NCBI GenBank assembly: GCA_024228115.1
Contig: JAAETT010000700.1
Coordinates: 1-47,284, forward strand
From: a bacterium
GTDB taxonomy: Bacteria; Myxococcota_A; UBA9160; UBA6930
DNA: 47,284 bases
Direction of reading: 5' to 3'
The translations under genes were made by a program, and so were the position numbers. Below the pieces are notes generated by a model that did no database searches, was not told the origin of the DNA, and saw only the letters and a list, made by a program, of their open reading frames with translations. This document shows, one piece after another, positions 20,654-36,227 of the stretch. Position 1 is the stretch's first letter. Each line of letters opens with the position of its first letter.

Positions 20654-20676
20654 CAACAAGTCAACCAGCGGGGACG
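20654..20676. repeat. half copy of a REP-like element
   Basis: These 23 bases (CAACAAGTCAACC, then GCGGGGACG) match 45927-45949 with one mismatch. That other site is a complete hairpin; here the 3' arm is missing. The element sits at the convergent junction and supplies the TGA of the phosphoesterase gene on the minus strand. Confidence 0.7.
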
Positions 20677-21779
20677 AGCAGGCGCATGGGTGGGCCCCAG
20701 AAGCCGGTGCCGCGGCTCACATAGAGGTGGGATTCGCCCTCCTGGTAGCAGCCGGCGACCCAACGGACGGAGAGGCGCACCAGCCAGCGGAAAGGCCAGA
20801 TCTGGCCGCCATGGGTATGGCCAGAGAGCTGTAGATCGACGCCCTCCCGGCTCGCCTTGCGAAAGGTCGCCGGATCGTGGGCAAGGAGGACCAGCGGCTC
20901 TTCGCGCTCCCAGCCGTCGAGTGCTCGTGCAAGATCCTCTGAGCTGCCCCTGGCCCAATCGCCCCGATGGTCGTCGACACCGGCGCACTCGAAGCCCGAT
21001 CCGTTGGCCTCGACGCGCACGCGCTGGTTGCGGAGGACTCGGATTCCGAGTTCTCGGATGCGGGCGACCCAGGCTTCATCTCCCGAATAGATGTCGTGAT
21101 TTCCGGTGACGAAGAAGACACCGTGGCGGGCCCGCAGCTTTCGGAACGCTTCGACATCGTTGCGGAGCTTCTCGACGTGTCCATCAACGAGATCGCCGGT
21201 AATCACGATCAAGTCCGCATCCAACGCGTTCACTCTTGCGACCAGCGCCTGCGCGAAGGACTCGCCCAGCACGGGCCCGATGTGGACATCGCTGATCTGG
21301 GCGATACGAAAACCATCGAGCGGCTCGGGCCAACGCTGGAGCCGGTGTGTAACGCGGCGAAGCGGCGGCGGACGCAAACCATTCCACAGGCCGACCGCGC
21401 CGAACCCGGCCATCGCCAGCGCAAGAACGATCGCCTTTGCCCCGGCGGCCGGCGCAGGCCACCCGAACCGGGCGCCGAACCACCCGAACAAATCGAGGGC
21501 AAGCGCCGCATTGAGTCCGATCCAGAAGAGCCCCATCCACACCAGGAACGGGAACGAAAGCCGACGCGTCCACAACGCCGGAAGCACGCGCTCGAGTGCG
21601 GGTTGGAGAACGGCACCGACGCCCAGCAACGCGATCACCGTGAGGCCAAACCAACGCAACGGGCCCTGGAACCCGGGATCCACGACGAGGCGTCGAGCCA
21701 GGAGCCAATGGGCGCCGGCAAGGAGCGTCAAGACAATCCCTACGATCAAAATCACGATGAACAGCCGGCGGCGCCCCAT
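20661..21779 (-). CDS. membrane-anchored metallophosphoesterase
   Basis: The 372-residue protein has about five helices in its first ~140 residues, then a calcineurin-type phosphoesterase domain with a full metal set: QISDVHIG, ITGDLVDG, TGNHDIYSG, LLAHDP and LSGHTHGGQ. This is the YaeI/YkuE-like layout; relatives act on lipid or cell-envelope phosphates. The C-terminus ends abruptly at RLLVPAG, with the last codons and stop lying in a REP-like repeat, about eight residues earlier than usual. Confidence 0.9.
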   Translation of the reverse strand: MGRRRLFIVILIVGIVLTLLAGAHWLLARRLVVDPGFQGPLRWFGLTVIALLGVGAVLQPALERVLPALWTRRLSFPFLVWMGLFWIGLNAALALDLFGWFGARFGWPAPAAGAKAIVLALAMAGFGAVGLWNGLRPPPLRRVTHRLQRWPEPLDGFRIAQISDVHIGPVLGESFAQALVARVNALDADLIVITGDLVDGHVEKLRNDVEAFRKLRARHGVFFVTGNHDIYSGDEAWVARIRELGIRVLRNQRVRVEANGSGFECAGVDDHRGDWARGSSEDLARALDGWEREEPLVLLAHDPATFRKASREGVDLQLSGHTHGGQIWPFRWLVRLSVRWVAGCYQEGESHLYVSRGTGFWGPPMRLLVPAG

Positions 21780-21932
21780 GCCGGGGCAGTCTCGCAGATT
21801 CGTTGCAATTCCGGGAGGTTGGAACACCGGCTGCGGCATACGGAGTGGGAGTTGCGGATGAGTGCGCTCTTCAGTTCCTACGAGGGCTGCTCGATACCCC
21901 TCCATGAACAGCAACGGCATGGGGGGATCCAC

Positions 21933-22235
21933 ATGCGCCATCTCGTCCGAAAGTTTCTCGTAACGGCGGCCATCCTGGCCACCTTGTCCGCACCGGCAGC
22001 GACCTTCGCGTTGGAGCGGATGGAAACCGTTGACGCCGGGAAGACGAGTCCGATGTGGGATTTGGCATTCTTGCGGCCCGTTGGATTCGCAGGGCTCGTC
22101 GCCAGCACAGTTGTATGGGTCCCCATGCAAGCCGTCGTGATGGTCACCCGGCCCACGGAATGGAAGATGCCGATCGATATGATGTTGAAGGACCCGTTCG
22201 AATTCGTGTTCGTGGATCCGCTCGGATCCCACTGA
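21933..22235 (+). CDS. small exported protein with membrane segment
   Basis: The 100-residue protein has a signal peptide (cleavage near TFALE, residue 26), then a hydrophobic stretch (VGFAGLVASTVVWVPMQAVV) and a C-terminal DPFEFVFVDPLG. Small proteins with this 'RP(L/V)G - hydrophobic - DP..FvF.rPLG' layout occur in gamma- and deltaproteobacteria without known function. GGGGGAT precedes the ATG. A strong terminator follows 49 bases after the stop. Confidence 0.65.
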   Translation: MRHLVRKFLVTAAILATLSAPAATFALERMETVDAGKTSPMWDLAFLRPVGFAGLVASTVVWVPMQAVVMVTRPTEWKMPIDMMLKDPFEFVFVDPLGSH

Positions 22236-22284
22236 CGCCGGGACGGAAATCACCCGGATGGGGGCTCCCGGAAGGGTCGATTCC

Positions 22285-22325: not shown

Positions 22326-23312
22326 CTACCAGCCGCGCAGGTCGATCGGCCAGCTCTCCAACACCTGCTCGTCGTCCACCACGTGCAGCGTTTCATGATA
22401 GGCGGCCGTCGGGTCGACGTGGGCCGGCAAGAGGCGGATGCGGTCGCCCACCTTCGCCGATGCCAGGGGCGCGAACGTGATGTGCTCGTCGGAGCAGAAC
22501 CAGACGTTCCCGCCGCCGACGATCTCCGGGTTTCCATGATCCATGCCGAGGGCCTTGAGGCCGCAATCCGCTACGGCGTACGTCTCGCTCACGGAGATGA
22601 TGGTGGCTTCCAGCTGAAGGGCGCAGCGGAAGGGTAGACCGAGTGCTCCGTACGCAGTGTCCATCAGGGCGTAGGAGCCGGCCTGGATCTCGGTCGCGAC
22701 CTCGTTCAGATCGTAGCTCCCGGTCCCACCGGCCGAGATCACTTCTCCCCCGACATCGGCGTGGGCAGCCGAGAGAAGCGCCATCGCATCCTGCACTCCC
22801 TCCGCCTGTTTCTCGCGATCGGAGACGATCATCAGGTGGCCCTCGTAGCCCATCACACCGCGGACCTCGAGCCCTGCCTCGCGAGCCATCGCAGCCAGGT
22901 CCCCGGCATGCTCGGGGGCACAGCCGCAACGCGGGAGGCCCACGTTGACATCGATCAAGACGTCGCGCACGCCCCCACGAGCTGCGGCGGAGATCGTTTC
23001 GGGCGAATCGACGGCAACCGTCACACGGGCATCCAGCTCGCCCAACCTGCGGGCATCGAGCACTTCGTTGGCGAGCAGCAGATCGTCCCCCAGACCGGCG
23101 GCCGCCATCCCTTCCATCTCGCGAATCGTCGCACACGTAAAGCTGCGATGACCTTGGGCGACTTGCCGCTGCGCCAGCGCCGTGCACTTATGCGCCTTCA
23201 CATGCGGACGCAGGCGCGGGCCCGGTAGCGCCTTGGCCATGCTGCTGAGGTTGTGCTCGAGGTCGACACCATCGACGAGCAGTGCAGGTGTCGGAAGATC
23301 CTGAATCCGCAT
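22326..23312 (-). CDS. D-threonine aldolase / D-serine dehydratase family PLP enzyme
   Basis: The 328-residue protein has the alanine-racemase-type barrel with the PLP lysine in RPHVKAHKC (about residue 39) and the C-terminal metal pair HVD (residues 298-300) in PAHVDPTAAYHETLHVV. In this fold D-threonine aldolases use His and Asp for the metal while D-serine dehydratases use His and Cys, so the HVD pattern favours an aldolase-type enzyme acting on D-3-hydroxy amino acids. The ATG overlaps the previous stop (TGATG); GTG at 23315 is possible. No ribosome site is obvious, so translation is probably coupled. Confidence 0.85.
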   Translation of the reverse strand: MRIQDLPTPALLVDGVDLEHNLSSMAKALPGPRLRPHVKAHKCTALAQRQVAQGHRSFTCATIREMEGMAAAGLGDDLLLANEVLDARRLGELDARVTVAVDSPETISAAARGGVRDVLIDVNVGLPRCGCAPEHAGDLAAMAREAGLEVRGVMGYEGHLMIVSDREKQAEGVQDAMALLSAAHADVGGEVISAGGTGSYDLNEVATEIQAGSYALMDTAYGALGLPFRCALQLEATIISVSETYAVADCGLKALGMDHGNPEIVGGGNVWFCSDEHITFAPLASAKVGDRIRLLPAHVDPTAAYHETLHVVDDEQVLESWPIDLRGW

Positions 23313-24022
23313 CACGAGGAGTGTGACACGGGTACCTCCTTCACGTACACGTTGCTGAACCCGGCGCCACCGATGCCCATGTAGGCGTCCTGGCCGGCCT
23401 GGATCGTCTCACCGCTGGCGGCGCAGGTCTGCGCCGTGTTCAAGACGACGGGCTGCCACGCAACGATGTCGTCGAAGCCGCCCGCGGCCGGCTCCTGAGG
23501 AGACGAGCCTTCGCTCTCCCCTTGCGACGGCCGAGCCGTGCCCGAAGCGGTGTCTTCCCGGGCTGCGGATCGTTCCCGCGCTCTCTGGGCAAGCCGGTCC
23601 ACGGTATCGGCGAATCGTTCGGCCGCGCGGCCCACCTGATCACCAGCGCGTTCCATGGTCTCGCGAAGGCGTTCCTCCCGAGGTGCCTGCTTTTCCCGGA
23701 AACGCTGTACACGCTCGCTGGCACGTTCGGCTTCGCCCAGCACCTCGTCGAGCAGGTCCCCGACGTCGTCCGTCACCCTCTCCGCGGCGCTGAACGCCTC
23801 CTCGAGGACGTTCCGCACCAGGTTGGAGACCGGCACCCGCAGATCATCCGCGATGGCGCGGATGTCCTCGGAAAGCTGCTCCGAGATCCGGGTGTGGAGG
23901 ATTCGCTCCTTGCGGCCACCCGAGCGAGCTTTGCGAGCACGTTCCCACTTCTCGGAATCCTGTTGAGAATCGCGGGTTTGGCCCCTTTCGGGACCGGCCT
24001 TGCCAGCAGGATCATCCACCAT
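23312..24022 (-). CDS. ribbon-helix-helix-like coiled-coil protein with degenerate zinc knuckle
   Basis: The 236-residue protein has a charged N-terminus, then a ribbon-helix-helix-like segment at about 40-75 (ERILHTRISEQLSEDIRA and VPVSNLVRNVLEEAF), a long charged coiled coil to about 155, an acidic linker, and a C-terminal TCAASGETIQAGQDAYMGI that looks like a CxxC zinc knuckle whose second Cys is lost. It is coupled to the aldolase-like gene. A promoter-like TTGACA and two palindromes sit immediately upstream, so it may regulate itself. Assignment is by pattern only. Confidence 0.6.
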   Translation of the reverse strand: MVDDPAGKAGPERGQTRDSQQDSEKWERARKARSGGRKERILHTRISEQLSEDIRAIADDLRVPVSNLVRNVLEEAFSAAERVTDDVGDLLDEVLGEAERASERVQRFREKQAPREERLRETMERAGDQVGRAAERFADTVDRLAQRARERSAAREDTASGTARPSQGESEGSSPQEPAAGGFDDIVAWQPVVLNTAQTCAASGETIQAGQDAYMGIGGAGFSNVYVKEVPVSHSS

Positions 24023-24066: not shown

Positions 24067-26319
24067 TCACTGCGCTGCTCGATCGCCGGCCACCGGCCCG
24101 CTGACGATCGCTGGCAACAGCAGGAGATCGGCCGTGAGCGCGCCCATGATGGCGATGGCCGAAAGAAAACCGAAGCTGGCAATGCTCTGCCAGGAAGAGA
24201 ACGTCATCGAGAAGAACCCGAGCGCGAGTGCCAGCGAGGTCGTGATCACCGCGCGGCCGACGAATCGAACCGACCGATTCATGGCGTCAGCGGCGGAAAG
24301 CCCCTGGTCGAGCCCCCGGCGATGCTGATTCAGCAGGTGGAGGGAATCGTCGATCGCAATTCCAATGATCACGGTCGCCACCATCGCCGTACCCATATCC
24401 AGCGGGACGCCCCAGAGTCCCATGGCGCCCAGGGTGAGAACCACGGGAGCCACGGTAGGCAGCATGGCGATGACGCCGAGCCGAATGGAACGCAGAAACA
24501 GCATCGAGAGGAGCGACACGATTCCAGCCGCGATCGCGAAGCTTCGAAGCTGGGTCCCGTGAATCTCCTCGACCATCTGGTAGTAGACGGCCAGCGGTCC
24601 GGTGAGCGTGTAAGCCCAGCTCTCCGGAAGGATTTCGCGCAAGATCCCATTCAGCGCGCCAAGCACCTCGTCCCTCTCCCGTTGGGACATCTTCCTCGCC
24701 TCCGTCGAGATTCGCGCGCGCCGTCGGTCGAGGCTCAACCATGGATCGATGCTGTCACCGCCCGAAACCGAGAGCAGAAACAAGGCCTCGCGGCCAGGCA
24801 GGTCCTCGGCCTCGGAACCCAGGCGGCTTCGAAGGGCCTCGATCGGGCCTAATATGCTGCGAGGGTTCGTCAGCCCCGAAATGCTATCGATACGCTGGCT
24901 GATTCCATCCAGGACCTCGAGGTTTCCGGCCGTTTCGAAGCTGGAGCCGACCGGGGGGCGTACCTCGAGTTCTACCGAATCGGGGCTACGCAATCGTGTT
25001 TCGACGAAACGGGCCCACTGGACCACCTGGCTTCCCGGCCCGTACAGCTCGTAGGGATCCACGTCGACGCGGAGCTGGTGCACTCCGACTGCACCAAACG
25101 CCATGAGAACAGAGGAGAAGGTGAGCACGAGCACCCTCCTACGCTGCGCAAGGTCGACGACCGATGCGAGAACGTCATCCCACGAGGTCCCGACCTGCTC
25201 TCTCTTCTGCTCGCCCGGCAGGAGCAGAAGTAGTGCTGGAAGAAGGGAGAAGCTCAACACGAGGGCAATCAACACTCCCGAGGCAGCGACGATTCCGAAC
25301 CTTGCGAGGCTTTCCACGCCACTCACGCCGAACGAAGCGAGGGCTGCTGCGGTCGTGACACTCGTCATCAGGCAGGGAGACGCCACACTTCGCACAGCCT
25401 CCCCGATTCCTCTGGATGTCCATGCCGATTTCGCGACGACAGCCGTGATGAGATGCACCGCATCTGCGACCCCGATGACCATGATCAACGGGGCCAGGGT
25501 TTGTGTGATGGCGTTCTGCGCCCAACCCAGCCAGCCCATCAGTCCCATCGTCCACAGGAGCGTCACGCCGAGCGTGAGAAGGGTCGCGACCACGGGCAGC
25601 CACGATCGGTAGAGAGCGAAGATGACCAGGGCGATCAGGGCGACCGTCGCCGGAACGAGCCGCGCCGAGTCCGCTGCGAGATCTTCGTCCGTGACCAGCA
25701 GCTCGACCGCCTGACCTACCAGATGGAACTCGAAGCCCCGCTCTTCGAAGGGAGCGAGCTCCCTTTGGAGCGCCCGGACGACCGCGATGGTCGAAGCGCT
25801 CTCCGACGACGCGAGTTCGATGACGATCGCCCCCGTGTTGCCGTCTTCGGAGACCAGGGCTCGCAACCACATCGGATCCGAGAGGACGGCGTTCCGGAGC
25901 AGATCGCGCTCGCCCGGCGATGCAGCGGCGTGAAGCAGGTGAGATTCCAGCCCAGCGGGTGATTCCAGAAGAACGCTGGTCGTAGCTGGGCTATCGACCC
26001 GGCGTACCTCGGACTGTCGCCGCATGGCAGAAGCAACCGCATTGTCCATTTCGATGGAGCGCGGATCGAAGACATCGTCGCAGACGCTCTTGTCCTCACA
26101 GCTCCAGACCGCTGCGATCGGCAGGCCGCCTCCGAATCCGTCTATGAATTGGTCGAACTCACGAACAGCGGCGTGGGAAGATCCGATGTAGGACCGGAAG
26201 CCTGTATCACTACTGAGTCGTAGGACCCCCGCAATCGCCACCCCACTCACGATCCCGACCAACACCAACGCCAGAATGGGATGCGCGAGCGCGGGCCTCG
26301 AGAAGAAGCTCATCGCCAC
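24067..26319 (-). CDS. MMPL/RND-family lipid exporter
   Basis: The 750-residue inner-membrane protein has the duplicated RND layout: a helix at 13-33, a periplasmic domain to about 215, five or six helices, a second periplasmic domain at about 405-555, then the last helix bundle. It belongs with HpnN/MMPL-type exporters that move lipids such as hopanoids or lipid esters, usually with a periplasmic LolA-like partner, which is encoded two genes upstream. It is the last gene of the kinase-LolA-PKS operon, three bases after the polyketide synthase-like gene. Confidence 0.88.
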   Translation of the reverse strand: MAMSFFSRPALAHPILALVLVGIVSGVAIAGVLRLSSDTGFRSYIGSSHAAVREFDQFIDGFGGGLPIAAVWSCEDKSVCDDVFDPRSIEMDNAVASAMRRQSEVRRVDSPATTSVLLESPAGLESHLLHAAASPGERDLLRNAVLSDPMWLRALVSEDGNTGAIVIELASSESASTIAVVRALQRELAPFEERGFEFHLVGQAVELLVTDEDLAADSARLVPATVALIALVIFALYRSWLPVVATLLTLGVTLLWTMGLMGWLGWAQNAITQTLAPLIMVIGVADAVHLITAVVAKSAWTSRGIGEAVRSVASPCLMTSVTTAAALASFGVSGVESLARFGIVAASGVLIALVLSFSLLPALLLLLPGEQKREQVGTSWDDVLASVVDLAQRRRVLVLTFSSVLMAFGAVGVHQLRVDVDPYELYGPGSQVVQWARFVETRLRSPDSVELEVRPPVGSSFETAGNLEVLDGISQRIDSISGLTNPRSILGPIEALRSRLGSEAEDLPGREALFLLSVSGGDSIDPWLSLDRRRARISTEARKMSQRERDEVLGALNGILREILPESWAYTLTGPLAVYYQMVEEIHGTQLRSFAIAAGIVSLLSMLFLRSIRLGVIAMLPTVAPVVLTLGAMGLWGVPLDMGTAMVATVIIGIAIDDSLHLLNQHRRGLDQGLSAADAMNRSVRFVGRAVITTSLALALGFFSMTFSSWQSIASFGFLSAIAIMGALTADLLLLPAIVSGPVAGDRAAQ

Positions 26320-26322
26320 TCG

Positions 26323-27381
26323 CTAGATCCTGGTTGGGACGACATGCGCAGACAGGCCCGGGCGCAGACCGATGATTGCGGCCGGGTCGAGTCTCGCGAT
26401 CATGAGGCGCTTCAGCACGAATACCATGCTGGCGCTGATCGTATTTCCCGTATCTCGCAGTACCGACCTGGCGCACTCCGTTGAAGCGGAATCGGCTTCC
26501 AGCATCCGGCTCAGCAGGGAAATCGTGCGCTCATCCGATGCCTGCAGTGCGAAGCTGCGGCCTGCCCCCTTCTGAATCCCAAGGTCCAACGCCAGCCGTG
26601 CATCCGATGCCAACGTGCAGTCTGGGCTTCCACGTGAGATGCCGAACTCGATACCGTACGTGCCGATTTCCCATTGCGATTCAGGCGCCGTCCATTCGTG
26701 CCGAGCCCACATCTCGCCCACCCCGATGCCTTCGCATCGGTCGTCGGATGAAAGAACGAGGGCACCGGCACCATCTCCAAAGATGGCATTGGCGACTCGC
26801 GTACCAGGAGTGTCATCGAGTCTGAACTGGAGCGAAGGAAGCTCCACGCAGACGATGAGAACGTTTCGGAGCGAACCTCCCAGCATTCGACTTGCCATTC
26901 CGAGGGCGGAGAAAAAGCCCTCACAGCCCATGAAGCCGACCATTCCTCTACCAACGTCCGCGCGCAGGTTGCTGGCCTCGATGATCGCGCGATCGATCCC
27001 AGGAGAGAACAAACAGGTCGAGGACACAGCCAGGACGTGGTCGATATCCGTCGCAGCAAGGCCTGCTGAACGAATGGCCTCGAGCGCTGCAGCGGATGCG
27101 AGACCTGGCGAAAGTTCACTCGTCAGGCGAAAGCGCTCTGTTGCCGTCGTGCCCTTGGCGCCGAAGGGGACGCCTACGAAACCCGACCCGAAATCCGGGA
27201 TGCAGCTATACCGCGTCTCGACACCGGCACGTCGCATGACAGCTCGTGCGCTCCTGGCTTCGTGCGTGCCCGGCCCGTGTAGCCGAGCGATGCGCTCTGC
27301 GAACTCATGTTGTGTGATTCGATACGCGGGGAGTGCAGTACCCACCCCGACAATCTTCGAAACCGTCCGGTGATTCGTCAT
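26323..27381 (-). CDS. type III polyketide synthase-fold protein lacking the catalytic His
   Basis: The 352-residue length and motifs fit bacterial type III polyketide synthases (chalcone synthase superfamily): GTALPAY, STCLFSPGIDR, FMGCEG with the nucleophile Cys153, NAIFGDGAGALVL, VLRDTGNTISASMVFVL with Asn313, and LRPGLSAHVV. In active enzymes His of an HPGG motif pairs with Asn for malonyl decarboxylation. Here the gapless equivalent is LQASDE with Gln280, and the whole HPGG is gone. The region before it also looks about 15 residues short. It may only transfer or condense without decarboxylation, or be a structural partner. Confidence 0.82.
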   Translation of the reverse strand: MTNHRTVSKIVGVGTALPAYRITQHEFAERIARLHGPGTHEARSARAVMRRAGVETRYSCIPDFGSGFVGVPFGAKGTTATERFRLTSELSPGLASAAALEAIRSAGLAATDIDHVLAVSSTCLFSPGIDRAIIEASNLRADVGRGMVGFMGCEGFFSALGMASRMLGGSLRNVLIVCVELPSLQFRLDDTPGTRVANAIFGDGAGALVLSSDDRCEGIGVGEMWARHEWTAPESQWEIGTYGIEFGISRGSPDCTLASDARLALDLGIQKGAGRSFALQASDERTISLLSRMLEADSASTECARSVLRDTGNTISASMVFVLKRLMIARLDPAAIIGLRPGLSAHVVPTRI

Positions 27382-27386
27382 TCCTT

Positions 27387-28220
27387 CTACTCCTTGTTCG
27401 AAATGGGGATGGATCTCCCTGATTCCAGCGCTGCGCTGGAGAAAAGCCCTTCCGCCAGCGACGGATTCAAGGTCAGCCTCTCGATTCGGACGGCCGTTCG
27501 GGTTCCCCGTGCCGGCCTGTAGACGGTCATGAGCGTGGGCACGCGAAACACGCCGTCCACGTGGAGACCTCCACGTGGAATTTCGATGATCTTGAAGGGC
27601 TCTCGGCTGCTCTTGAAATCTTCGATGCGAAGAATCGCGAGGTCGCTCCGAGCGACATGGAATTCCACCCGGGTCCGTGGTGACGGGAGCAGCGGCGTCG
27701 CCTCGATCACGTACACGTCTTCGCCTGCGGTCGACGAGAGTCTCGTGGGCGCGAGTGCGTAGTCCTCCACCCGATGCCGTTCGAAATCTTCGTAAGTCAG
27801 ATCCGTCCCAAGAAACGCATCCCCCCGTTGGGCTCCCGAAATCCGGCGGACCCGTCGGAGCGACGGAAGGAAGATGAACTGCTCGTCCGCACTCCAGAGG
27901 TCTGCTCGCTCGATGATCAAGAGGCCCGTGCCTCGGAGATATTGCGGTTCGGAGAACTGCGCCCGGCTGTGGAGTCGTCCATCGATGTACTTGCTGGCCA
28001 GATCGAGCCTTCGCTCCATTCGCTCACCGGCGACATTGGTGACGAGAAGTTCGACGTGAGCGCTGAGATCACAGCCGTATCTGTGCTCGAAGGCCTCGCG
28101 AAGAATGCGCTCCGACGAGAGTGAACCGACATCCTCACGGGTGGCATCGCCTGCGTTCGCGAACAAGAGCGACGCAAGGAGAGTCAGGGCTCGCAACCAC
28201 CGGCCACTGGAGCGGGTCAC
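27387..28220 (-). CDS. LolA-like outer-membrane lipoprotein-sorting family protein
   Basis: The 277-residue exported protein has a signal peptide in the first ~25 residues (WLRALTLLASLLFANAGDA) and the fold pattern of LolA-like proteins that accompany MMPL exporters: VAGERMERRLDL, LLIIERADLWSADEQFIFLPSLRRVRRI, and TDLTYEDFERH. Such proteins carry lipids across the periplasm. GTG at 28220 is chosen because it overlaps the kinase stop as GTGA; an ATG at 28271 would need a longer overlap. It lies five bases before the polyketide synthase-like gene. Confidence 0.82.
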   Translation of the reverse strand: MTRSSGRWLRALTLLASLLFANAGDATREDVGSLSSERILREAFEHRYGCDLSAHVELLVTNVAGERMERRLDLASKYIDGRLHSRAQFSEPQYLRGTGLLIIERADLWSADEQFIFLPSLRRVRRISGAQRGDAFLGTDLTYEDFERHRVEDYALAPTRLSSTAGEDVYVIEATPLLPSPRTRVEFHVARSDLAILRIEDFKSSREPFKIIEIPRGGLHVDGVFRVPTLMTVYRPARGTRTAVRIERLTLNPSLAEGLFSSAALESGRSIPISNKE

Positions 28221-30625
28221 GGGCTCGTCTCGTTTCTTCGTTTCAAGGGCGTTGCCCTCCGGATCCCGCATGAGCGAACGAGTTCGGCTCTGGGAATCGA
28301 CACGCGCGACATCGTTCCTCTTCCCTCTCCCGACTCGAGCAGGATCCGCCCGCCGAGCCCCTCCACGATCTCCTGGGAGATGGCGAGACCGAGCCCTGTG
28401 CCTCCGGGCCGAAAGGACTCGAACGGCCTCATCGCCATGCGGAGCTGGTCGCAAGTCATGCCGCATCCGGAGTCTTCGATCTCCAGGACGAGGTCGGAAT
28501 TCGTCGCAAACGCTCGGAGTTCGACCGGGTCACCTTCCTTGCTGGCCTCGATCGCGTTGTGCAGGAGGTTGACCAGGACGCGAACGAGTCGGTGTGACCC
28601 GATCGGAAGCCCATGAAGAGCCGGGAATGGATGCACCACGACACGCCCTTCCCCCATCACCTCGGAGATCTCACGAAGCGCCCGCTCCACGATGTCGCCG
28701 AGTTGAACCGGGGCGGCCTCGGATGCAACGGCCGCACCGCCGAGCACGCTGCGGACGATCCCGCGAATTTGCGCTGCCAACCTCTCGATGGACCGTGCGC
28801 TGGCATGGCCTTCCTTCGTCAGGCGGGTCTCCCGGAGCTTCCGCGCCGTGACTTCGAGTGCCCCGAGCGGCTTCCCGATTTCGTGGGCCAGTTCTGCGTG
28901 AATTCGGCCCGAGGCAGCGAGCTGCTCCGCCACGATCAGGGCCTCTGTCAGACGAGACGCCTCGAATGCAGATGCCGCCTGTGCAGCGATCGAAGCGAGG
29001 AAACCGAGATGGCCCGAAGGAACGAACATTCCCCGCTTCGCGGGCGAAATCAGGATCCAGCCTACGACGTCATCTCGAATGACGATTGGACAACTCACCT
29101 CGACGCCGGACTGAAAGAGAAGTTCTCCGGCATCGCCCAGCTCGACGCGATTCAGGTCGGTTGGCCCCCCTGCGAAGAGCGTTGATGCGACGACCGCCAG
29201 ATCGGAATCAGTGCAGGCAGCGGGCCCCGTCGCGGACGCCAGCGAAAACCCTTCACGCTGTTTCCAGAAGACCGCATTCTCTGCTTCCGGGAACCCGATG
29301 CCGAGAACCTTGCTGGCGACGGCTGCGATCGATTCGGGATCCCTGAGCTGTGCGATGCAAGCAAACCCCGGATCGCTCGACAGCCGCTCCCATTCGGGTC
29401 CGCGTGGCCGAAAAGCGGCTTTGACCGACGAGGAAATGGTCGAGCGAAGTAGATCCAGTGGCAAGACAAAGGCGAACACAAGTGCCAACAGGACTGGAGC
29501 GGAGCGTACTTCGGCAGGGAGAACCAGGTTCTCCCGCAGCAATAGCAGTGGAATGAACAGGACCGTGCTGACTGCGAGCAGATAGACGATCTGACCCGCG
29601 GCGCGGCGAAGAGCCATGTCCAGGTCGAATAGGTGGTAGCGAGCGATTGCGTAGCCAGGAGGGAGTGGAGAGAGTGCGGCTCCGACGGCTGCGGCCGACC
29701 ACATTCCACTGGGGCGATCGACCAGCCAGAGAAGGCCAACCACGCCACCGAGTGCCGAGATGCCTTGAAGGAAGACCCTGGCTTGGCTGCGTTCGATCCG
29801 CGAAGGCGACTCTCGAATCGCGAGCGTGCACGAGAGGCAGAGAAGTGCCCAGGCGACCACGCTTCCCGCCATCAAGATGTGCTGAACGAGAAGCATCGTC
29901 GAATGGGAAGATCGAAAGGTCGCGTCGAGTTCAGCGATCCACAGCAGGCCGAAAAAGCAGTAGGGCACGATCCGGATGCCTGGAACCCTGGCCGCGATTC
30001 CTCGTTGACGAGGAAAGACCATCGCCAGGTCTGAGATCGCCGCGGGAAGTACCGCTCGCGCTACGGACTCGACCGGATAGAGGGCCGCTTCCATCCAGCC
30101 CGCAACGGCTGAAGCCATCAACGCACCGATACTCCCGTAGACCAGGGCGAAAGGCATGGCGGCCGGCACTCTGGCTCGCACGGCCGTGAGCAACACGATC
30201 GAAAGAAGGACTCCACAGAGCACGATCGCCGCAGCGAAGCGAGTCCGAGATTCGAGAGGGTTCACGAGGAAAGATCGGACGGCGCCCTCCGGCTCGGCAG
30301 ACGGAGGCAGCCCGAGTGAGATCCGGCCTGGTGGCAGCGTGGCAACCAGGGAGTGCACGTCCCGGGCCGATTGGATGACGGTCGCACCATACGGGGTATC
30401 GATCCGGTCGATGCGGGTGCCGTACGCCAGGGAACATGCCGGGTAGAGCGGTGCCCCCATTCCAACCACCGCATTCGGATACAGAGGGCAGGGAAAAACC
30501 GGGCTCTCGGATCGAAACAAGGAAGGAATCGACAACACGAGAACGAGGACCGGCGGGAGGACCGCGGTCAGACACAACAGGGTCGTGCGAAATCTGGGTG
30601 AGAGCGTCACGGTCGCGATCGCCAC
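28217..30625 (-). CDS. large multi-pass sensor histidine kinase
   Basis: The 802-residue product has a helix at about 13-35, a ~90-residue extracytoplasmic loop (36-127), then eight or more helices to about 395, a GAF-like region near 425-555, and the kinase core. The phospho-acceptor is His581 in ELAHEIGKPLG, followed by NLLHNAIEAS, DSGCGMT and GGTGLGLAISQEIVEGLGG. No response regulator is adjacent. As first gene of a tight operon with a LolA-like protein, a type III PKS-like protein and an MMPL exporter, it probably senses membrane or lipid state, but its target is unknown. Confidence 0.9.
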   Translation of the reverse strand: MAIATVTLSPRFRTTLLCLTAVLPPVLVLVLSIPSLFRSESPVFPCPLYPNAVVGMGAPLYPACSLAYGTRIDRIDTPYGATVIQSARDVHSLVATLPPGRISLGLPPSAEPEGAVRSFLVNPLESRTRFAAAIVLCGVLLSIVLLTAVRARVPAAMPFALVYGSIGALMASAVAGWMEAALYPVESVARAVLPAAISDLAMVFPRQRGIAARVPGIRIVPYCFFGLLWIAELDATFRSSHSTMLLVQHILMAGSVVAWALLCLSCTLAIRESPSRIERSQARVFLQGISALGGVVGLLWLVDRPSGMWSAAAVGAALSPLPPGYAIARYHLFDLDMALRRAAGQIVYLLAVSTVLFIPLLLLRENLVLPAEVRSAPVLLALVFAFVLPLDLLRSTISSSVKAAFRPRGPEWERLSSDPGFACIAQLRDPESIAAVASKVLGIGFPEAENAVFWKQREGFSLASATGPAACTDSDLAVVASTLFAGGPTDLNRVELGDAGELLFQSGVEVSCPIVIRDDVVGWILISPAKRGMFVPSGHLGFLASIAAQAASAFEASRLTEALIVAEQLAASGRIHAELAHEIGKPLGALEVTARKLRETRLTKEGHASARSIERLAAQIRGIVRSVLGGAAVASEAAPVQLGDIVERALREISEVMGEGRVVVHPFPALHGLPIGSHRLVRVLVNLLHNAIEASKEGDPVELRAFATNSDLVLEIEDSGCGMTCDQLRMAMRPFESFRPGGTGLGLAISQEIVEGLGGRILLESGEGRGTMSRVSIPRAELVRSCGIRRATPLKRRNETSP

Positions 30626-34322: not shown

Positions 34323-36227
34323 CTAACCCCGCTTGAGGATCCGGCCCAGCACCCCCTTCTTCCGCTGTTTTCGCAGGCTGATCAGCCGAAGTTCCTGGAG
34401 GGCTTCGTCACAATCCGGGTCGAGCTCGACGGCGCGGGTGAAGAAGCGCTCCGCCGTATCCGCCCGGCCGTCCACTTTGCAGAGGCGCCCGAGAATCAAG
34501 AAGGGCACCGCTCGCTGCGGAGCCAGCTTCTTTGCAAGCAGGGCCCGTTTCTTCGCACGACGCAGCGACGCCGGATCCTCTGGGGCAGCCAGGTACTCGG
34601 AATAGCCGTAGTAGGCATGGTACTCGCCCTCTTCAGGGTAGACCTCGACGGCTTCGGCGAAATACTTCACGGCATCGTCGAAACGGCGTCCACGCAGGGC
34701 GCCCATGCCCCTTTGGAAGAGCCGCTCAGCATGCAAGGCCTTCTGACCCTCACCCAGAACGCGTTCCTCTTCCTGGCGCTGAGCTGTCTGCTTCCGCGCC
34801 TCTGCCGTAGAGATGTCCTTGTAGGCCCGATTGACCTGGTCGAAGACCTGCTCGGCCAGCCCGCGCACGGCTTCACCTTCCGCGCTGAATCGATCCGGGT
34901 GGGTGCGCAGTGCAAGCTCGGCGAAGGCCTTTCGAATCGTGGCGTCATCGGAGCCCTTTGGAACCCCGAACATCTCGTACTCGCTCTTTCCCTCGAAACG
35001 CTCCGCGAGCTCTGCCAACTCCTTGCGTGCGCGCTGGGCCCTGCGGCCCTCTGCACGATCGTCGACGACATGCACCTTTTCCTTGGCAACGCGGCCGGCG
35101 CGCGGCAGGGAACAAATCGTTCGGCCCTGGGCGGAGGCCACCTCGAGATCGACGTGCCCGACCACGATCAATCCGTACAAGATGCGGCGCTCTGCCTCCG
35201 CGAGGCCTGAGAGTTCCGCGAGATTGCGCTTGCCATCCAGGTCATCGAGCAGGGCTTCGATTGCCGGCTCAGTCCCGATGTCTTGATAGGCGTGAAACGG
35301 TGCCGAACTCGGCACTGGATGCAGGTGGGCGCGCTCGGCCAGGAAAGCGTCGATCTGCTCGAGGGAAGCCCGCTCACGAACACCTTCGAGGATCAATGAT
35401 GCCGCCGAGCGTTTCAAACCGACCGTCTCACCCTTGAGCTTGGCACCCTGCTGGAAACGAAAGCTCCCGGCGCTCCAGGAGAAGACCTCGAGCAAGCGCT
35501 GTTCGGATTGCTTGTAGAGCGCGAGAGCCAGGTCTGCATCGTCAAGCATGTACATGGCTTTCAAGATCTGACCTTGAAGACCTTCGCCGCGTTTCACACG
35601 CCGGACGGACTCATGCAATACATCCCAGCCGATGGTGCCGCTTGCAACCAACAGATGGCCGAGCGTCTCCTTCACCATGTTGGAACGCACGGATACCGGC
35701 CGTCCACCGCGCAGCTGGACCAGCTTCTTCTTCGCGCCCTCCTGGAGCCGCAATACGCCGCTGGCGCGAAGGCCGTGGAGGTGGTGAAGCAACGCCGGGA
35801 ACGGCAGATCGGAAAACGTACCCGACAGATCGAGGGGACGATTCTGGCTTGCAGCCTTTCCATCGGGCACCAGCCGGCCGACCACGCCGAGCAGCGTCTT
35901 CAAGGGAACGGGTTTCGTCAGCACCACGTCGGCTTCCAGATCGCGCGCGCGGGCTTCGTAGTCGGGCGTGAAACGGCAACCCGAGAGCATCACCACGGGC
36001 AGCCGACAGGCCTCGTCCCGACGGATCTCTTCGAGCACGCTGAAGCCATCCTTCCGGGGCAGCATCACATCCAGGGTCACGAGATCGGGGCGCATCGTGC
36101 GCATGCGCTCGAGTGCAGTCTCGCCGTCACCGGCCGTCTCGACCTGGTAGCCCTGTTCGCGGAACGCTCGTGAAAGGATGCGCCGAAAGTTGGGGTCGTC
36201 ATCGACACATAGGATCGTCGCGGTCAC
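34323..36227 (-). CDS. receiver-PATAN(DUF4388)-J-domain-TPR fusion protein
   Basis: The 634-residue protein joins four parts: a receiver (1-120) with Asp53 in VTLDVMLPRKDG and Lys105 in VVLTKPVP; a PATAN/DUF4388 region starting near 132 (DLSGTFSDLPFPALLHHL) and running to about 370; a J domain at about 415-475 with HPD at 443-445; and TPR-like repeats from about 500. The J domain would recruit a DnaK to a phosphorylation-controlled scaffold. PATAN-receiver proteins are common in deltaproteobacteria and cyanobacteria. No kinase is adjacent. Confidence 0.88.
   Translation of the reverse strand: MTATILCVDDDPNFRRILSRAFREQGYQVETAGDGETALERMRTMRPDLVTLDVMLPRKDGFSVLEEIRRDEACRLPVVMLSGCRFTPDYEARARDLEADVVLTKPVPLKTLLGVVGRLVPDGKAASQNRPLDLSGTFSDLPFPALLHHLHGLRASGVLRLQEGAKKKLVQLRGGRPVSVRSNMVKETLGHLLVASGTIGWDVLHESVRRVKRGEGLQGQILKAMYMLDDADLALALYKQSEQRLLEVFSWSAGSFRFQQGAKLKGETVGLKRSAASLILEGVRERASLEQIDAFLAERAHLHPVPSSAPFHAYQDIGTEPAIEALLDDLDGKRNLAELSGLAEAERRILYGLIVVGHVDLEVASAQGRTICSLPRAGRVAKEKVHVVDDRAEGRRAQRARKELAELAERFEGKSEYEMFGVPKGSDDATIRKAFAELALRTHPDRFSAEGEAVRGLAEQVFDQVNRAYKDISTAEARKQTAQRQEEERVLGEGQKALHAERLFQRGMGALRGRRFDDAVKYFAEAVEVYPEEGEYHAYYGYSEYLAAPEDPASLRRAKKRALLAKKLAPQRAVPFLILGRLCKVDGRADTAERFFTRAVELDPDCDEALQELRLISLRKQRKKGVLGRILKRG

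Follow-up and report, generated by a model that had tools for sequence, protein, structure and literature searches.

An operon of a sensor kinase, a LolA-like carrier, a type III polyketide synthase homologue and an MMPL transporter suggests an envelope lipid transport system that reports its own traffic

Introduction

How Gram-negative cells sense the arrival of lipids at the outer membrane is poorly understood. In the window, by which we mean the whole 47,284-nucleotide stretch of DNA analyzed here, a sensor histidine kinase gene is followed by genes for a LolA-like periplasmic carrier, a protein resembling type III polyketide synthases (PKSs) and an MMPL/RND transporter. An earlier note on this locus had read the four genes as a single regulated system that makes or modifies a polyketide-type lipid and exports it, with its own sensor in the same transcript. 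The locus thus raises the question of what a kinase, a pump, a carrier and a PKS homologue do together. The analysis below suggests that they constitute a system for lipid transport in the cell envelope, one that keeps account of its own traffic. Where a kinase is joined to an RND lipid pump and a carrier, by fusion or within an operon, the idea of a pump self-reporting its lipid traffic becomes directly testable.

Results and Discussion

The four genes form a maintained operon

Direct reading of the sequence placed the kinase, LolA-like, PKS-like and MMPL genes, in this order, on the minus strand (Table 1), and the Pfam matches of all four proteins exceeded the curated cut-offs. Behind the overlap of the first two genes, the stop of the LolA-like gene (27387) is separated from the PKS-like start (27381) by 5 nt, and the PKS-like end (26323) from the MMPL start (26319) by 3 nt. 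Coordinates and Pfam therefore confirm the layout and junctions that had been described for this operon.

Table 1. Coordinates of the operon, its key residues and the candidate response regulator (window positions unless a locus is named)
Feature	Position	Strand	Basis or remark
Sensor histidine kinase, 802 aa	28217..30625	-	HATPase_c (PF02518), 73.7 bits
Predicted phospho-acceptor His581 codon	28883..28885	-	H-box AELAHEIGKPLG; direct reading; His retained in fused relatives
GTGA overlap	28217..28220	-	GTG start of LolA-like gene on TGA stop of kinase gene; junction also in L030
LolA_like (PF17131) periplasmic carrier, 277 aa, N-terminal signal-like segment	27387..28220	-	102.5 bits, gathering cut-off 30
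Type III PKS-like protein, 352 aa, Cys-Gln-Asn for Cys-His-Asn	26323..27381	-	Chal_sti_synt_N, 57.4 bits
Catalytic Cys153 codon, GFMGC	26923..26925	-	Conserved in alignment
Gln280 codon at the catalytic His position, HPGG replaced by QASD	26542..26544	-	Alignment
Catalytic Asn313 codon, DTGNTIS	26443..26445	-	Conserved in alignment
MMPL/RND (HAE-3-like) transporter, 750 aa	24067..26319	-	PF03176, 117.9 bits, two stretches
NtrC-like response regulator, contig C73	L113:9227-10444		Family comparison with relatives

A search of about 85,000 species genomes found a single close relative, MAG Bpl_16 (locus L030 in genome G004, same genus), in which the four genes, their order and their tight junctions are as in the window. 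The two genes directly downstream of the operon are also common to both loci, and on another contig of G004 the first part of the kinase gene lies divergent from an ABC gene, as it does upstream of the window kinase. The four proteins are 71-76% identical between the two species, with dS of about 1.0-1.4 and dN/dS of 0.13-0.20, the PKS-like gene having the lowest ratio (0.13); purifying selection acts on each of the four. Because the operon has been kept in L030 at this identity and with these ratios, we consider it real and maintained. No promoter-like sites above chance expectation were found inside it, and the region upstream of the kinase gene showed no alignable conservation, and hence no common motif, past the start of the ABC gene. 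Gene order and junctions support the claim of a single unit, conserved and transcription-like, in the window and L030.

Nearly all genomes compared are fragmented assemblies. The lack of the operon in the nearest genome, G003, was not taken as evidence of a true absence, since the contig breaks off in the downstream gene's position and does not reach the ABC neighbour, which the assembly also lacks; the whole operon region is missing from the G003 assembly.

A kinase-MMPL-LolA core occurs mostly without a PKS

Relatives were searched with the LolA-like protein and then with the kinase sensor region, and the neighbourhoods of the matches were read. Within this bacterial class, a kinase, an MMPL and a LolA_like gene occur together at more than 30 loci, mostly without a PKS and usually beside a gene for an NtrC-like response regulator (RR). 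The order RR-MMPL-kinase-LolA on one strand was found at 12 loci, and in G002, a sister genome of the same genus (L066/L117), the genes run LolA-kinase-MMPL-RR and a PKS is lacking. The expected conservation of the four-gene order thus held in L030 and broke down in most core loci, from which the PKS is absent.

Only three loci combine a module of the kinase-MMPL-LolA type with a PKS, namely the window, L030 and L032 (RR-PKS-MMPL.kinase, with a canonical PKS). Type III PKS genes lie near an MMPL gene at five of seven loci in this class (window, L030, L032, L033 and L035) and at 8/60 elsewhere in the phylum, so the association is recurrent but optional. No MMPL, LolA, YceI or kinase was found within about 6 kb of 46 of the 60 sampled phylum PKSs. 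The PKS was therefore rejected as a defining part of the module: the majority of core modules have no PKS, and the majority of type III PKSs in the phylum stand apart from the module. The picture of the PKS as an integral, canonical component falls with these counts and with the replacement of its catalytic His by Gln. The earlier note had named PKS-like homologues occurring usually without the other three genes as evidence that would speak against it; this is the situation of the PKS, but not of the kinase-LolA-MMPL core.

The kinase is repeatedly fused to MMPL in relatives

MMPL runs into the kinase in a single frame at nine loci, distributed over seven genomes and three families. The fused gene is a stop-free ORF of about 1,550-1,700 aa at L069, L072, L077, L080, L082, L093 and L132, and at L074 and L032 it is interrupted by contig ends or a frame break. 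Pfam detected MMPL and HATPase_c within one protein in the fused relatives. The intramembrane Asp motifs are present in the MMPL of the window, L077 and L069, and the H-box His in the fused proteins of L077 and L069; judged from these residues, both halves of the fusion look competent. In a quick kinase tree, the window, L030 and L066 formed a fully supported group, and the tree required the fused and split states to have interchanged at least five times, a number that is approximate because some branches are weak. The survey was made within one phylum.

Because the fusion has arisen repeatedly, it is strong evidence that kinase and MMPL work together, and it bears out the claim that the sensor kinase belongs to the system. 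In the window itself, the two are separate genes rather than one polypeptide, in an order opposite to that of the fusions, and we therefore infer their coupling from the relatives. That the four genes came to lie side by side by chance, or share a transcript without being related in function, is barely credible: most homologous modules do lack the PKS, but order and overlaps have been kept in two species at a dS of about 1, and kinase and MMPL are fused in relatives.

No description of an RND/MMPL-kinase fusion was found in the open-licence literature searched. Transporter and histidine kinase are joined in one polypeptide in the transceptors CbrA (SLC5-kinase; PMC13022988) and KsAmt5 (Amt-kinase; PMC8534201), as they are in the relatives of this operon; these relatives differ in using the RND/MMPL superfamily, with a presumably lipid-type cargo, and in the window the genes are split. 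In the BceS-BceAB flux sensor, a kinase monitors how active a transporter is that has genes of its own (PMC8534201), but that transporter is of the ABC type and its kinase is a small, intramembrane-sensing one. We put forward tentatively, at somewhat less than an even chance, that the fusions and their split counterparts represent an undescribed signalling class, a lipid-flux transceptor in which an RND/MMPL lipid transporter would be the sensory half of a histidine kinase, and whose split versions could take on enzymes specific to the cargo, in the window a type III PKS homologue that is naturally Cys-Gln-Asn. If true, the transceptors known from SLC5 and Amt would extend to the RND superfamily, which includes Patched and NPC1.

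The sensor kinase and a candidate response regulator

The window kinase has the H-box His and the HATPase_c domain of a two-component histidine kinase. From its N-terminus, it consists of a single TM helix, a small beta-rich domain in the periplasm that contains two conserved Cys, about 7-8 TM helices, and GAF, DHp and HATPase_c domains. Isolated segments of the periplasmic sensor domain gave no convincing match in Pfam, and Foldseek matches to a model of the whole sensor were dominated by the GAF domain; our impression is that the periplasmic domain is PDZ-like. Among 379 genomes of the phylum, strong matches to the sensor family were confined to this class. The combination of a GAF-kinase and an NtrC-like regulator resembles PrsK/PrsR of the XrtA/PEP-CTERM system. 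However, the window kinase scored 99.8 bits against TIGR02916 (PrsK), far under the cut-off of 300, and the NtrC-like regulator 122.4 bits against TIGR02915 (PrsR), far under 502.6, which places neither in these families; moreover, unlike PrsK/PrsR, the present system is linked to MMPL and LolA and its regulator has no GAFTGA motif.

No response regulator lies next to the kinase in the window operon. A kinase-first arrangement with no adjacent regulator, singled out in the earlier note, is thus correct for the window, but it is not the basic design; it is a rearranged form of a module that normally carries a regulator. The distant regulator that the earlier note proposed to look for has a candidate on contig C73 of the same genome (G000). 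This RR is 52% identical to, and an orthologue of, the RR that follows LolA-kinase-MMPL in the sister genome G002, and it overlaps by 4 nt a second kinase gene, here called kinase'. Over its catalytic half, kinase' shares 54% identity with the window kinase, against about 30% for every other kinase of the genome. The kinase'-RR pair is also present in G004 and G003. Because the C73 RR is orthologous to the module RR of G002 and stands beside the closest paralogue of the window kinase, orthology makes it the best candidate partner of the window kinase. Against this pairing, the C73 regulator already has an adjacent kinase of its own. Kinase' (L113:8355-9230; also L114 and L115) is short, lacks the 7TM/GAF sensor and overlaps the orphan regulator, and the pair looks like a module that has lost its transporter and sensor.

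In the module RR, a receiver domain is combined with the remnant of an NtrC-like AAA domain and with a Fis HTH. All 11 regulators of the family examined (11/11) lacked both GAFTGA and the Walker A Lys, so these proteins are probably not sigma-54 activators. By eye, the Lys typical of receiver domains likewise seems absent from this family. The C73 regulator is followed by a second NtrC-like/Fis protein without a receiver (L113:10622-11548).

The pump, the carrier and the direction of transport

The window MMPL has two repeats with intramembrane acidic residues, in the motifs GVADAVH (residue 286) and GIAIDDSLH (657-658). By profile it shares an RND subgroup with the HpnN/HAE-3 hopanoid transporters (TIGR00921, 203 bits), but its score against the HpnN profile itself, 121.7 bits against a cut-off of 751.85, excludes it from that family, and unlike HpnN/HAE-3 it is partnered with a LolA_like protein and a kinase. 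Precedent for the pairing of LolA_like and MMPL is provided by TOL_3187 of Thalassolituus, an MMPL-LolA fusion linked to alkane growth and induced 42-fold on C28 alkane (PMC6304351). Aryl polyene export relies on ApeL (LolA-like), ApeM (RND) and ApeN (LolB-like) (PMC8253772); as in the window, a LolA-like carrier gene lies beside a gene for an RND/MMPL-type pump, there for a polyketide-like outer-membrane lipid. The aryl polyene system differs in having type II KS/ACP enzymes, a LolB-like partner and no kinase, and no type II ketosynthases or ACPs were found in the window operon or the immediate flanking genes scanned. Lipid trafficking of the MMPL/LolA type, as had been proposed, is thus supported.

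The alkane link of the Thalassolituus fusion could, by analogy, point to uptake. The operon might then import or recycle a hydrophobic compound, such as an alkane, a wax or a sterol-like lipid, with the kinase sensing its arrival, and acyl-CoA dehydrogenase-like ORFs, recognized by eye, follow the C73 regulator locus. We regard import as unlikely, since the characterized MmpL and HpnN transporters move lipids outward and a PKS homologue in the operon better suits biosynthesis; outward transport appears the more likely direction.

The PKS-like protein lacks the catalytic His

Chal_sti_synt_N is the only CHS domain matched in the PKS-like protein, with no Pfam match to the C-terminal one. Its predicted structure (pLDDT 78) nevertheless has the CHS-like thiolase fold: the top Foldseek matches were all type III PKSs (TM 0.83), and the alkylpyrone synthase Pks11 was the best match (Z 40.1). 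It resembles Pks11, Pks18 and CHS in fold, Cys and Asn, and differs from them in the Gln and QASD that replace the catalytic His and HPGG. When 60 further type III PKS loci were sampled from the phylum, Cys-Gln-Asn was found in the window and L030 only, and 62/62 other aligned homologues were Cys-His-Asn. The position of the window PKS in a type III PKS tree was weakly supported.

Its dN/dS of 0.13 led us to reject the view that the gene is a dead remnant, and selection of this strength indicates that the protein is probably functional, with altered chemistry. We also dropped the assumption that a missing His abolishes decarboxylation: according to a review, H303Q alone among the CHS His303 mutants retains malonyl-CoA decarboxylation (PMC6274091), so catalysis by the PKS-like protein is possible and altered chemistry likely. 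A natural Cys-Gln-Asn homologue is a case for asking whether the chemistry of the H303Q mutant occurs in nature.

It is possible, but doubtful, that this protein is a working type III PKS making an alkylresorcinol- or pyrone-type lipid that MMPL and LolA export under kinase control. The fold, the match to Pks11 and the tolerance of CHS for Gln at His303 agree with such a role, as do parallel clusters with a canonical PKS (L032, L033 and L035) and an MMPL-LolA_like-PKS-FAD monooxygenase cluster (L197). Nevertheless, the catalytic His and HPGG have been lost in both the window and L030, and the window operon has no tailoring enzyme (methyltransferase or FAD monooxygenase), unlike L031, L034 and L197. 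A non-enzymatic role, as an acyl-CoA- or acyl-binding adaptor that informs the kinase or MMPL of the supply of precursor, would fit the loss of the His with retention of fold and selection, and the recruitment of the protein into a sensor-transporter module; it is quite improbable, as the nucleophilic Cys and the oxyanion Asn have both been kept, which points to catalysis.

Among the parallel clusters, L033 and L035 have the order YceI, type III PKS (Cys-His-Asn), FAD-binding or AMP-ligase enzyme and MMPL, which combines a periplasmic lipid binder (YceI) with a PKS and an MMPL. L197, from a distant family of the phylum (G190), has the order MMPL, LolA_like, a signal-peptide-like protein of unknown family (547 aa), type III PKS and FAD_binding_3 monooxygenase.

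A proposed transport-coupled two-component system

On balance, we favour the reading that the operon encodes a two-component system coupled to the transport of an envelope lipid, and that a modified type III PKS homologue joined it later. The proton-driven MMPL in the inner membrane would pass lipid to, or receive it from, the periplasmic LolA-like carrier, and the 7TM-GAF kinase beside it would respond either to the lipid itself or to the occupancy or turnover of MMPL, and signal to the NtrC-like response regulator encoded elsewhere, on contig C73. The PKS-like protein, as the later recruit, may act on a portion of the cargo that derives from acyl-CoA, with a chemistry altered because its catalytic His is Gln. 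Lipid as the cargo, the sensing of flux and the reaction of the PKS-like protein are predictions from sequence and gene context.

Genes flanking the operon

Downstream of the operon, on the minus strand, a 236-aa protein with no Pfam match (23312-24022) resembles, by eye, a ribbon-helix-helix followed by a coiled coil. Its gene overlaps a 3-hydroxyaspartate aldolase-like gene (22326-23315) by 4 nt, and the pair is kept without the operon in G002 and in G008, a genome of another genus, where a radical-SAM gene (L097:8597-9511) occupies the operon site between the 236-aa gene and the ABC gene. A receiver-domain protein with J-domain and TPR-like segments, as judged by eye, is encoded near the operon (34323-36227, minus strand) and is unlikely to be its regulator. 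A metallophosphoesterase-like protein with a GNHD motif, also seen by eye, is encoded at 20661-22253 (minus strand), in a block with the aldolase gene that is conserved in this genus.
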